The translations under genes were made by a program, and so were the position numbers. This document shows, in pieces, positions 3,496-25,703 of a DNA stretch of 32,212 nt. The notes beneath the pieces were generated by a model. That model was not told the origin of the DNA and made no database searches. It saw only the letters and a list, made by a program, of their open reading frames with translations. Source of the stretch: a virus; the IMG/VR virus record IMGVR_UViG_3300042691_036792, positions 1 to 32,212 of that record. One strand, 5' to 3'. Within the stretch, counting starts at the first letter, position 1. Each line of letters opens with the position of its first letter.

Positions 3496-4102
3496 GCACC
3501 TTTCCATCGAGTGGAAAGCCGACGATCAGGGCCAGATCGAGGGCTATGGGTCGGTCTTCGACACGGTTGATTTTGGCGGTGACATCATCGCGCCGGGCGC
3601 GTTCAAGCAGTCGCTGAACAGCGGACGGCGCGTGAAAATGCTGTTTCAGCACGATGCATCTTCGGTTGTCGGCGTCTGGAACACCATGGAAGAGGACGCC
3701 AAGGGGCTGCGCGTGGCGGGCCGGATGCTGACGACCGTGCGCGCGGGTGCCGAGGCTTACGAACTGGTCAAGGCGGGTGCCATCGACGGGCTGTCGATTG
3801 GCTATCGCACGGTCAAGAGCATGGATCGCAACGGCAAGCGGGTGATCATGCAGGCGGACCTTTGGGAAGTGTCCCTGGTGACGTTCCCGATGAACGAAAT
3901 GGCGCGGATCGACGCGGTGAAGGCTGCCGGTCTAAGCGAAAGAGAGTTGGAACGGATGCTCACGCGGGACGCTGGGCTTTCCCGTTCCGTAGCTCTTGCC
4001 CTGATGGGCGGGGGCTACAACGGCATCAAGGCCATGCGGGACGCTGGCGATGATGGCGCGGAAGAAGTCGCAAGCCTGCTGAGGCTTCGCACATCCCTGT
4101 AA
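3485..4102 (+). CDS. HK97-type prohead (maturation) protease
   Basis: This serine protease (S78 family) cleaves the capsid delta domain during prohead maturation. It has 205 aa. Conserved elements are the EGYGSVFDTVD start, the invasion of PGAFKQSL, the catalytic His56 in KMLFQHD and the catalytic Ser104 in DGLSIGY, followed by the WEVSLVTFPMN block. A C-terminal extension of about 60 residues (SEREL onward, largely helical) could act as an internal scaffold or targeting tail. It overlaps the portal gene and sits immediately before the capsid gene, the canonical order. Confidence 0.93.
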   Translation: MEFKHLSIEWKADDQGQIEGYGSVFDTVDFGGDIIAPGAFKQSLNSGRRVKMLFQHDASSVVGVWNTMEEDAKGLRVAGRMLTTVRAGAEAYELVKAGAIDGLSIGYRTVKSMDRNGKRVIMQADLWEVSLVTFPMNEMARIDAVKAAGLSERELERMLTRDAGLSRSVALALMGGGYNGIKAMRDAGDDGAEEVASLLRLRTSL

Positions 4103-4124
4103 TCGCCATTAGAGGAGTTTTCCC

Positions 4125-5378
4125 ATGGCATTTGACGATCTGAAGCCCCTCATCGAGGAGGGCAACAAGACCATTGCGGCCATTCGCGCCGAAGTGGAAG
4201 GCGTGAAGCAGGCCGATGTTCTGACCGAGCAGAAGATCGCCCGCATGGAAGCCGACCTGGCGGCAACGCTGAAGGCGAAGCAGGACGCCGATCTGGCGCT
4301 GAAGGCGCTGGAAAACCGCCTGGCCGAGATCGAGACGAAGGGCAACCGCCCCGGATCGACTGCGGCAACGCAGAAAGCCGCTGAAGAGCACAAGGCGGCC
4401 TTCATCGACTTCATGCGCAAGGGCAGCAACGGCGGGGCTATGGACCGGCTGTACGACCTGCAGCAGAAGGCCGCCGACGTGCGGACGACGGTCGGTGCGT
4501 CGGGCGGTTTTGCGCTGCCCAAGGAAATCGCAGATCAGGTCTACAAGATGATCCTTGACGTGTCGCCGATCCGGTCGATTGCGCGTGTCGTGACCACCGG
4601 GACGACCGACTACCACCAGGTCGTCAATCGCGGCGGTCTGGCAGCGGAATGGGTGGGCGAAGTCAGCGCGCGGACGCTGGCAACGGCCACTTCCGATTAT
4701 GGCGATGTTGCGCCTACCTTCGGCGAACTGTCGGCTGTGCCGGAAGCAACCCGGCATTCGATCAACGACCTGTTTTTCGATGTCGAAGCAGAACTGGTGC
4801 GGGATGGGGGGGAGCGCTTCGCAATCGCGGAAGGCATCGCGTTCATCTCGGGATCTGGGACCAACCAGCCGACCGGCTTTCTGACCGGCACGCCGGTTGT
4901 CACGGGCGATGCCGCGCGGGCGTTCGGCGTGCTGCAGTACTTTTTCACCGGTGCGGCCAGCGCATTGTCGGCAAACCCCTGGGACAACCTGAAAGACATG
5001 CTGTACGGGCTGAAAGCCGGTTATCGCCAGAATGCTTCGTGGGTGATGAACAGTCTTGTTCTGGCGGCCCATGCCAAGGTGAAAGACACGACCGGGCAAT
5101 ATCTGCTGACGCCGGCCGTGCGCGAAGGTGACCCCGACACCATGCTGGGCAAGCGCATTGTGGTTGCCGAGGACATGCCGAACGTGGGCGCGGGCGCTTT
5201 TCCGATTGCCTGCGGCGACTTTTCGCGGGGCTATCTGATCGCCGACATTCCCGGACTGTGGATGGTGCGCGACGAAATCACGAAAACGGGCTGGGTGCGG
5301 TTCCCGATGGCAAAGCGCGTCGGTGGCCGGGTTCTGGATTCGGCGGCAATCAAGCTGCTGCGGGTCGCCACGTCCTGA
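4125..5378 (+). CDS. Major capsid protein, HK97 fold
   Basis: This is the main shell subunit, 417 aa, preceded by a good ribosome site (AGAGGAG, 4110s). Residues 1-105 form a charged, coiled-coil delta domain that acts as scaffold and should be removed by the upstream protease. The mature part begins near the ADVRTTVGASGGFALP block and carries the conserved N-arm/E-loop region, including RGGLAAEWVGE. The C-terminal FRVPMAKR-like stretch (VRFPMAKRVGGRVLDSAAI) fits the P-domain end. A strong hairpin just downstream separates it from the connector genes. Confidence 0.95.
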   Translation: MAFDDLKPLIEEGNKTIAAIRAEVEGVKQADVLTEQKIARMEADLAATLKAKQDADLALKALENRLAEIETKGNRPGSTAATQKAAEEHKAAFIDFMRKGSNGGAMDRLYDLQQKAADVRTTVGASGGFALPKEIADQVYKMILDVSPIRSIARVVTTGTTDYHQVVNRGGLAAEWVGEVSARTLATATSDYGDVAPTFGELSAVPEATRHSINDLFFDVEAELVRDGGERFAIAEGIAFISGSGTNQPTGFLTGTPVVTGDAARAFGVLQYFFTGAASALSANPWDNLKDMLYGLKAGYRQNASWVMNSLVLAAHAKVKDTTGQYLLTPAVREGDPDTMLGKRIVVAEDMPNVGAGAFPIACGDFSRGYLIADIPGLWMVRDEITKTGWVRFPMAKRVGGRVLDSAAIKLLRVATS

Positions 5379-8542: not shown

Positions 8543-8946
8543 GATCGGTTTCGTTTGATCACGAGGGCAAGGCTTACAGCCTGCGCCTGTCGATGGGGGC
8601 GATGGTGCGGTATCAGGACCGCAGCGGGGAAACCATCGGCGCGGCCATCGCGGCCGTTCAAAGGGATGCGTCGGACATGCGGCGGGCGGGGCGGTTGTTC
8701 TGGGCCGCGCTGCAGACAGACGCAACCGAAGCGGATGCGATGGAACTGATGGAAAAGATCGGCATCGCCCGCGCCCTGGAAATGGTTGGCCAGGTGCTGG
8801 CCATCTGCCTGGAAGACCTGACCGGCAAGAAGCCGGGGAGTGCTGAGGGAAACGCGCCGCGCCGCGCGACGGCGGCGACATCATCGGCGAATGGTGGCGG
8901 AACTGGATCGAAGCGGGGCAAGACCCCGCCGCCTTCTGGGACGTAA
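8539..8946 (+). CDS. Tail assembly chaperone, short (G-like) form
   Basis: The protein has 135 aa, initiated at GTG 8539, which overlaps the tail tube stop as GTGA. The N-terminal domain (VSFDHEGKAYSLRLSMGAMVRYQ, then helices with FWAALQTD and MELMEKIG) resembles tail assembly chaperones. After the slippery site the zero frame gives a low-complexity Ala/Thr/Gly tail, as in lambda G. It would coat the tape measure protein during assembly. A longer product arises by -1 frameshifting at 8847-8853. Confidence 0.83.
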   Translation: MRSVSFDHEGKAYSLRLSMGAMVRYQDRSGETIGAAIAAVQRDASDMRRAGRLFWAALQTDATEADAMELMEKIGIARALEMVGQVLAICLEDLTGKKPGSAEGNAPRRATAATSSANGGGTGSKRGKTPPPSGT

Positions 8947-23586: not shown

Positions 23587-23840
23587 GGCTGATTCCCCTC
23601 TTTCGCCCGCGCGCGCTCCGGCGCATGGCAAACGATTTTACCTACGCGCAGGGATCCGTCTGCAATGAGGTTGCGCCACGTTTTTGCGGCGACATCATAT
23701 GGCTGATTGTTGCGCAGAAATGGATCGTACCACGCTTGAATCGCCTCGCTGCGAGTGTGCCTTATTGTTTCCGGGATCGGCCATTCTGTGCGGGCGCTGC
23801 GGGCGAATACCGCCCAGCCCTTAATCGGCAACTGTCTCAT
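23583..23840 (-). CDS. Hypothetical protein (85 aa)
   Basis: The sequence MRQLPIKGWAVFARSARTEW leads to TIRHTRSEAIQAWYDPF and KTWRNLIADGSLRVGKIVCH. It is soluble and basic-acidic mixed. The C-terminus is KEGNQP, in which the last codons double as ribosome site and start for the next gene. The protein family resembles small phage proteins of unknown role. Confidence 0.68.
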   Translation of the reverse strand: MRQLPIKGWAVFARSARTEWPIPETIRHTRSEAIQAWYDPFLRNNQPYDVAAKTWRNLIADGSLRVGKIVCHAPERARAKEGNQP

Positions 23841-24139
23841 GGCTGATCCCCCTTGCGAATAGCGGTGGCGATGTTAAGGGCTGCGGTGCCATAGGCCAGC
23901 GCGGCAATGGCCTGCGCCAGTTTATCAAGCATATCGTCGTCCGGGCTGTGCGGCTGGACGCGCTCAAGATGAGCGGCAGCCACCTTCGCACACCGCTCCC
24001 GTTCCGCCTGCACAGCCGCGTCTGCGATGTCCTTGCGGATGTATTCAGAATAACCTTCCTTTGGTGTCAGGTTGTCACGCGCGCCTACAACGCCATTCGG
24101 GTATCGTTTGGCGATAATCCGTTCCGGCTGGTCACTCAT
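23837..24139 (-). CDS. Hypothetical protein (100 aa)
   Basis: ATG 24139 gives MSDQPERIIAKRYPNGVV followed by YSEYIRKDIADAAVQAERERCAKVAA, a phrase common in small early phage proteins (helical, acidic). An earlier TTG at 24202 lies in the C-terminal part of the lar-like gene and is not needed. The C-terminus is RKGDQP. The function is unknown. Confidence 0.65.
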   Translation of the reverse strand: MSDQPERIIAKRYPNGVVGARDNLTPKEGYSEYIRKDIADAAVQAERERCAKVAAAHLERVQPHSPDDDMLDKLAQAIAALAYGTAALNIATAIRKGDQP

Positions 24140-24146
24140 GGCTGTG

Positions 24147-24354
24147 TCAGTCAACGCGGCCTCCTGCGCTTGCGATGGGGGCGCGGGTGTTCCATCTGGC
24201 AATCACGCCTTCCTGTGTGGCGCGTTTAATCTCAACCCCCCCCCCCAATTATGGGGCACCTGTGGATTAAGTTGAACGTGCCAAGGATGCGCGTTGCGTC
24301 TACGATTTTGCCAGCTTCGCCCCCGCAAAACGGGCATGGCAACAGGTCACTCAT
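24147..24354 (-). CDS. Lar-like zinc-ribbon protein, frame broken at G11
   Basis: ATG 24354 starts MSDLLPCPFCGGEAGKIVDA, the Lar restriction-alleviation signature, with CxxC near the start and a Cys in HRCP. As sequenced, the frame stops at 24232 after 40 aa because of an 11-G run (minus-strand reading). With one G fewer the frame continues for 68 aa and ends ATQEGVIARWNTRAPIA, with the WNxRA end typical of this family. So the gene is either phase-variable, a pseudogene, or affected by a homopolymer error. Lar proteins modulate type I restriction in enteric prophages. The role here is inferred. Confidence 0.65.
24236..24246. repeat. 11-base C/G homopolymer in the lar-like gene
   Basis: Eleven C residues on the plus strand (G11 in the sense of the gene) mark the exact point where the Lar-like frame is lost. 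Such tracts are classic slippage sites. Confidence 0.95.
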
Positions 24355-24538
24355 GGCTGTCTCCTTTCTGCGCGCCGCCCCCGCAAATATGGGCCACCTC
24401 AGCTGCATCTTCGGCATCGTCGCGCCGCAGAACGTGGATAGCCCAAAGGATGCGATCTTTTTCGTCACGCGATCGGCGCTCGGACAGCATGTCTACCAGG
24501 TCGCGCGTATCGTATCGTCTTGTGACTGGCACCTGCAT
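24347..24538 (-). CDS. Hypothetical protein (63 aa)
   Basis: ATG 24538 overlaps the upstream stop (TGATG). GTG 24541 is the alternative. The sequence has QVPVTRRYDTRDLVDMLSER, then RILWAIHVLRRDDAEDA, a helical protein without a recognised domain. The C-terminus is KGDSHE. The start of the lar-like gene is embedded within it and uses the same CAGCCATG junction in another frame. Confidence 0.6.
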   Translation of the reverse strand: MQVPVTRRYDTRDLVDMLSERRSRDEKDRILWAIHVLRRDDAEDAAEVAHICGGGAQKGDSHE

Positions 24539-25323
24539 CACTCGCCGCCTTCCGTCGGGCCTGCGGCCCCGGCAACGGGCGTGCCGGTCCAGCGAAAGAT
24601 TTTTTGCATTTCGTCATCGCAATACTGATAAAGTTTCCAGTTGCCGATTTCCCAAGTCAAAACAATGCTGTTGCCTTCGACTAGTATACGCGGTGGTGGC
24701 CAGTTCCAGCACTCGTAGGCGTCCAGATAAGAGAGGGCGCCTAAGGCGCTTTCGAGATCGACGGCTAGAGTTTCTTCCTCACCGTAAATCTCGCAAAGGT
24801 CCACCATATTGCGAATGTCTTGTCTCAGCGCAGCGTAGTCTGCGGCCCCGGCAACCGCTTGATCGCCGGGGCCTATGTCAGGTCGTGTGTGTGTGGAATT
24901 ACTGGTTTGGTCATCTGGCATCACCTCCTTTCCGGTGCTGTCGATCAGGGCGAGGATTGCGGCTTCAATCGCACCAGCTTTCGCCGCAGTCTTTGTACTC
25001 ATGGCAGCGTGCAACTCCATTTCCACCGCGATGTTCCATGCGGTCTTTCGGATCACAGCGGCGTCGGGCTGCGCGGGGGCACCCTCGTACAGTTTTTCGA
25101 TATCTTCTGCCAAAGCCCGCTCAAACTCCGCGCCAAGCCGCCGCTGTCTGCCAGCGAAATTGGACAGGATGTCGTCAATCTGTGTCGGCCAGTCTGGCGC
25201 GGGCTGCACGGCGGGAAGGGCGGCGACGGCATGATATGCGTCAGATGTCTCGCCGAATTGAACGCCATGCTTGGCAAGCCGGGCCAGCACATCCCCGCGC
25301 CGGATCAGATCATCGTCACTCAT
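24538..25323 (-). CDS. Hypothetical early phage protein (261 aa)
   Basis: ATG 25323 (MSDDDLIRRGDVLARLAKHG) overlaps the upstream stop. The remainder of the upstream open frame (to 25425) lies inside the neighbour. The N-terminal DDDLIRRGDVL motif is common in small phage and host proteins, and may be an assembly tag. The middle is helical. The C-terminal half (YLDAYECWNWPPP, LVEGNSIVLTWEIGNWKLYQY) is probably a separate beta-rich domain. The function is unknown. Confidence 0.65.
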   Translation of the reverse strand: MSDDDLIRRGDVLARLAKHGVQFGETSDAYHAVAALPAVQPAPDWPTQIDDILSNFAGRQRRLGAEFERALAEDIEKLYEGAPAQPDAAVIRKTAWNIAVEMELHAAMSTKTAAKAGAIEAAILALIDSTGKEVMPDDQTSNSTHTRPDIGPGDQAVAGAADYAALRQDIRNMVDLCEIYGEEETLAVDLESALGALSYLDAYECWNWPPPRILVEGNSIVLTWEIGNWKLYQYCDDEMQKIFRWTGTPVAGAAGPTEGGE

Positions 25324-25703
25324 TTGGTTTCCTTTCCGGTGTCGATCAGGGCGAGGGCCTCTCTCACACCATGGCGGATATTGGTGCTTAAAGCGCCTAC
25401 AGTTTCCAAGTGAACGGCGGTCCAATCAAGCCAGTGTGTGGCTTTTGTGAGTTCGGCCCGCAGCCGCGCGTTGTCTGCCTCTGCTGCCTCGGCGCGGGCA
25501 TAGTGCTTGTTGGCCTCTTTGCACTTTTTGTCGAACTCGAGCATCGCTTGTTGCCAAGCCTCATGCTGGGCGTCACGCTCTGCCGTCAGGGCTTCAATGC
25601 GGTCGGCGGCGTCATCGCAGATACCGAAATCGCCCTGCTTCGTATTGAACAGCCATGCGCCATTGGCACAAGACCGCAGCCGCTTCACCAGATCATCGCT
25701 CAT
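25320..25703 (-). CDS. Ead/Ea22-like helical protein (127 aa)
   Basis: It begins MSDDLVKRLRS, followed by CDDAADRIEALTAERDAQHE and a long coiled coil (residues 40-90). This N-terminal phrase occurs in many early or accessory phage proteins related to Ead/Ea22. ATGA overlaps mark both ends. The function is unknown. It may interact with host factors through the coiled coil. Confidence 0.68.
   Translation of the reverse strand: MSDDLVKRLRSCANGAWLFNTKQGDFGICDDAADRIEALTAERDAQHEAWQQAMLEFDKKCKEANKHYARAEAAEADNARLRAELTKATHWLDWTAVHLETVGALSTNIRHGVREALALIDTGKETK

Follow-up and report, generated by a model that had tools for sequence, protein, structure and literature searches.

The DNA analysed, referred to in the following as the window, is an entire virus record of 32,212 bases, held in IMG/VR as a single contig. 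It encodes a terminase and, on the minus strand, a block of small genes around a Lar-like gene. The terminase (557–2272) is 76–77% identical to those of Pan4, Mae-JY02 and Mel-JY03, phages recorded from Pseudanabaena and Microcystis, and 48% identical to that of RcapNL of Rhodobacter.

The Lar-like frame (24232–24354, minus strand) is opened by an ATG at 24354, preceded by a strong Shine–Dalgarno sequence, AAAGGAG. The coding sequence, starting with MSDLLPCPFCGG, enters a tract of 11 G (24236–24246, minus strand; C11 on the plus strand), and the assembled reading, MSDLLPCPFCGGEAGKIVDATRILGTFNLIHRCPIIGGGG, ends after 40 amino acids at a TGA (24234–24232). The remainder of the gene lies in the neighbouring frame (24147–24236, minus strand), which contains no stop codon from 24236 until the one at 24149–24147. 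Its 29 codons, VEIKRATQEGVIARWNTRAPIASAGGRVD, followed by TGA, include the sequence ARWNTRA with the invariant W-N-x-R motif. An earlier note on this DNA had claimed that the frame is lost exactly at G11 and that a shift by one base restores a Lar-type ending; both claims hold, positions included.

The G tract is the only run of more than 8 bases in the record, and the frame break coincides exactly with it, so that the long homopolymer within a gene that is looked for at contingency loci is present here. A first-order Markov estimate predicts 0.006 C-runs and 0.14 G-runs of at least 11 bases in the window. An unplanned control was provided by 1.26 Mb of IMG/VR loci chosen by protein similarity alone, which contained two G/C runs of at least 10 bases, one of these of at least 11; by this count, a G/C run of such length is a ~2–5% event per window. 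Apart from the break at G11, no further lesions were seen in the gene, suggesting that the break is either recent or merely apparent.

Two halves of one Lar-like protein

The N-terminal part alone matches positions 1–31 of the Lar profile TIGR03655 with 24.8 bits, whereas the read-through of both parts matches the whole profile (1–55 of 55) with 35.3 bits, a gain of ~11 bits. Likewise, the score against PHROG 599 rises from 21.2 bits for the N-terminal part to 33.3 bits for the read-through. Against a Lar profile of 105 relatives, the joined halves scored 50.1 bits, compared to 32.3 bits for the N-terminal part, the C-terminal part thus adding 18 bits; none of 500 composition shuffles of the C-terminal part reached 50.1 bits, and their maximum was 39.5. 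When equal-length stop-free stretches from all six frames of the window were scored, the 30 best of 40,234 all overlapped the Lar-like gene. Random frames that seemed to score higher were rejected, since these stretches contained the gene's own CPFC motif. The CPFCG knuckle, the second Cys knuckle and the C-terminal W-N-x-R are all present, in columns that are invariant or nearly so across 25 sequences, and the W-N-x-R is encoded in the second frame, beyond G11. The N- and C-terminal parts form one Lar-type protein, and the earlier identification of a Lar-like gene with its frame lost at the G tract is borne out by TIGR03655, PHROG 599, the relatives' profile and the frame scan alike. The phage setting that the note assumed is likewise supported.

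The read-through nevertheless falls short of both curated cut-offs by about 4 bits, scoring 35.3 against 39.6 bits for TIGR03655 and 25.0 against 28.6 bits for PF14354. For this reason, Lar-like is the right name for the gene, which is not a certified member of the Lar family. Its predicted function, judged from the family that it resembles, would be restriction alleviation.

A fold was predicted on the read-through, made with the four-letter code ATAA read as I and with one residue changed (I36L); the code GGGG read as G was set aside, as it altered the reading at further sites. The prediction is modest (mean pLDDT 72) and supports the layout of strands and helix only. The G tract encodes Gly37–Gly39, and in the predicted fold the glycine triplet opens the last strand (residues 37–42), followed by a helix (47–55) with the invariant W-N. 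The assembled 40-residue product would be without most of the last strand and without the W-N-x-R helix. Comparison of the predicted fold with viral proteins annotated for restriction alleviation gave a weak match (best E 0.0065), and a search of solved structures returned weak zinc-ribbon matches only.

Cassette junctions and the ancestral frame

The Lar-like gene is flanked on the minus strand by two genes without assigned function, a 64-amino-acid gene upstream (24347–24541) and a 100-amino-acid gene downstream (23837–24139), which starts with an ATG at 24139. A further gene of the same accessory operon lies upstream (24538–25425). At the 5' junction, AGAAAGGAGACAGCCATGAGTGA (24347–24369, minus strand), the Shine–Dalgarno sequence and the start of the Lar-like gene overlap the end of the upstream gene, QKGDSHE and its stop codon. 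The 3' junction, CAGGAGGCCGCGTTGACTGA (24147–24166, minus strand), contains the end of the Lar-like gene, GGRVD and its stop, just ahead of the next start.

Both junctions recur around other genes. The 5' junction, AGAAAGGAGACAGCCATGARTGA, is identical in six other IMG/VR contigs, always joining an upstream gene that ends in QKGDSHE to a downstream one that starts with MSD. The pairs of neighbours that flank it differ among contigs, and five kinds of gene were seen on the downstream side. In L180 (the same as L352), another gene, beginning MSDRRPTMQDEAD, sits between the identical two junctions. In L178 and L179, the counterpart of the 64-amino-acid gene, 91% identical to that in the window, directly precedes a homologue of the downstream gene, and the slot of the Lar-like gene is empty. 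From these comparisons, the Lar-like gene is a cassette, exchanged at short shared start and stop sequences, and is dispensable, since L178 and L179 have the flanking genes without it. This cassette nature, seen from synteny, is evidence beyond that of the earlier note.

The 3' junction also bears on the reading frame. Its sequence CAGGAGGCCGCGTTGAYTGA is common to L352 and L358, where it closes other genes as GGRVD and a stop, in the same frame as the C-terminal part in the window. The ancestral frame is thereby fixed independently of the similarity to Lar. The ATG and the CPFC motif define the N-terminal frame, and the proper end of the gene is at 24147; the one-base discrepancy has to fall between the two, with G11 as by far its most probable site. 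The break also changes the distance to the downstream gene, whose ATG lies 7 nt past the full-length stop, compared to 92 nt past the premature one. It is conceivable that coupled translation of the downstream gene would be lower from the G11 allele.

Several other rearrangements were observed among these phages. The gene at 24538–25425 contains a linker, DIGPGDQAVAGAA, that recurs inside otherwise differing proteins of L178, L180, L181 and L354, as if it were a recombination point within genes too. L353 has a short remnant, MSDQPGIAEAVVAHIRKGDQP, at its minus-strand junction at 8800, resembling an internal deletion of the operon's downstream gene. In L347 (contig 3300042502_001783), from a phage without a Lar cassette at this slot, two adjacent Lar-like genes lie at 962–1686, and the Lar-like function may be supplied from that other position.

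Origin of the frame break

When patterns from either flank of the tract were searched for in 2.9 million IMG/VR viral contigs and in 84,980 GTDB species genomes, no near-identical copy turned up, so no length variant of the tract is known. The best relatives of the gene are ~40% identical, and blastn found no match to the region among GenBank phages. None of the aligned Lar relatives has a G tract at the site, which, with the closest being ~40% identical, is a weak test of tract conservation. Nearly all of them have fewer glycines there, which suggests that the tract expanded locally. Among 106 distinct CPFCGG-type sites, a run of 9 was found only in L334 and a run of 6 only in L240, both of them in phase. 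Two viral contig scans for CPFCG-type codons followed by at least G9 gave 78 pattern matches, of which one was Lar-like, again L334. This is an intact, unrelated Lar-like gene on the minus strand, with its in-frame G9 encoding part of a Gly-rich stretch between two zinc knuckles.

A break of the same pattern was found in another contig of the collection, L094, where a G10 at 4107 splits an unrelated gene (approximately 4003–4282) by a one-base frame change. This G10 is one of the two long G/C runs counted in the 1.26 Mb of loci. The homologue of the split gene in L160 (2856–3113) lacks the tract and is read in a single frame. Long G runs that are out of phase are therefore not peculiar to anti-restriction genes; either neutral slippage or an error of assembly may lie behind them.

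These observations bear directly on the earlier proposal of a contingency switch at the G tract that would make anti-restriction phase-variable. In such a case, slippage would toggle the Lar-like protein on and off in the phage population and might also, by translational coupling, alter the downstream gene. A length of 11 G is within the range of known poly-G switches, which have 7–11 G in Campylobacter (PMC9311878), and phages with hypermutable poly-G tracts have been reported (Sorensen et al. 2021). The otherwise undamaged gene, the spacing of the downstream start and the in-frame G9 of L334 would also fit such a switch. However, the proposal was not borne out: no length variants are known, the comparison with homologues that the earlier note suggested showed Lar relatives without the tract and none out of phase, L334 was the only Lar-like gene among the matches with at least G9 in the two scans, and the unrelated gene of L094 is broken likewise. 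We consider an evolved phase-variable anti-restriction gene unlikely. A literature search for Lar together with phase variation found nothing relevant, and a lone homopolymer that is out of phase, as in this metagenomic phage contig, argues only weakly for a switch. If the switch were real, a single phage stock would hold particles that differ in their ability to establish in restricting hosts.

The main rival explanation is an error of length in sequencing or assembly, in which case the tract of the true phage would be in phase and the gene intact. The record is one IMG/VR contig without a second copy, its sole defect lies at its longest homopolymer, where length errors concentrate, and L094, from the same collection, has the same break pattern. 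On the other hand, the strongest effect of homopolymers has been placed above 14 bases (PMC8808543). Moreover, a comparison with proteins from related contigs showed no further gene of the window split across frames, save at this cassette and at shuffled neighbours, so the general quality of the sequence looks good. With a single contig and one sequence, such an error fits the observations nearly as well as a true allele made by slippage; we regard it as a real possibility, and a more probable one than the switch.

A full-length protein might also be made from the G11 allele by recoding, either through transcriptional slippage or through programmed +1 ribosomal frameshifting, consistent with the long homopolymer at the frame change and the stop codon close behind it. 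Transcriptional slippage was rejected on published E. coli data, in which every homopolymer insertion during transcription fell in an A or T run and runs of G or C showed no tendency to slip (PMC5574713). The shift required would be +1, and the relatives read the site in one frame. Recoding of either kind is thus highly improbable.

Our preferred reading, to which we give about an even chance, is that the exchangeable accessory gene is present in the window as an allele shifted in length by ordinary slippage, presumably inactive, and not evidently a switch that is kept as such. The Lar-like zinc-ribbon gene is an exchangeable cassette in the accessory operon of a tailed phage, and the tract within its coding sequence, at Gly37–Gly39, would have been put one base out of phase in this genome by ordinary slippage as the mutable homopolymer was replicated. 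Translation would then end at 40 amino acids with the loss of the last strand and the W-N-x-R helix, and the dispensable gene would be left with an OFF allele, presumably able to revert. Placing the slippage allele ahead of an assembly error is a matter of judgement, and should the tract have evolved as a switch, ordinary slippage would be an incomplete account.

Comparison with known systems

Like members of the Lar family (TIGR03655 anti_R_Lar, PF14354, PHROG 599), the protein encoded in the window has a CPFCGG knuckle, a second knuckle ending in Cys33 and the C-terminal W-N-x-R. Unlike them, it has its frame broken at G11 and scores below the curated cut-offs, and its second knuckle appears as H-R-C, as it does in L003. 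A neighbouring family is represented by the model NF007260 for RalR, a protein of the Rac prophage of E. coli. The model was matched by 7 of 25 aligned Lar-like proteins but not by that of the window. RalR reportedly acts as a DNase toxin, kept silent by the RNA RalA (PMC4147584), which calls for caution over the predicted anti-restriction function.

The hypermutable poly-G tracts of Campylobacter phages resemble the present case in that a long G tract lies inside a phage reading frame. The Campylobacter case reportedly rests on observed phenotypic diversity, whereas the window is one sequence, from another host group and with another kind of gene. With this reported precedent, the switch reading, even if true, would apply a known mechanism to a new target; a truly variable tract would add counter-defence to the functions switched by poly-G in phages.

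A parallel to the cassette is found in the N4-like phages JWAlpha and JWDelta, one of which has a Lar-like gene that is absent from the same position in its close relative (PMC3915230). That paper mentions no homopolymer, and the boundaries in the window differ in being short shared start and stop sequences. They reveal a group of phages that shuffles small genes between short, almost invariant start and stop junctions.
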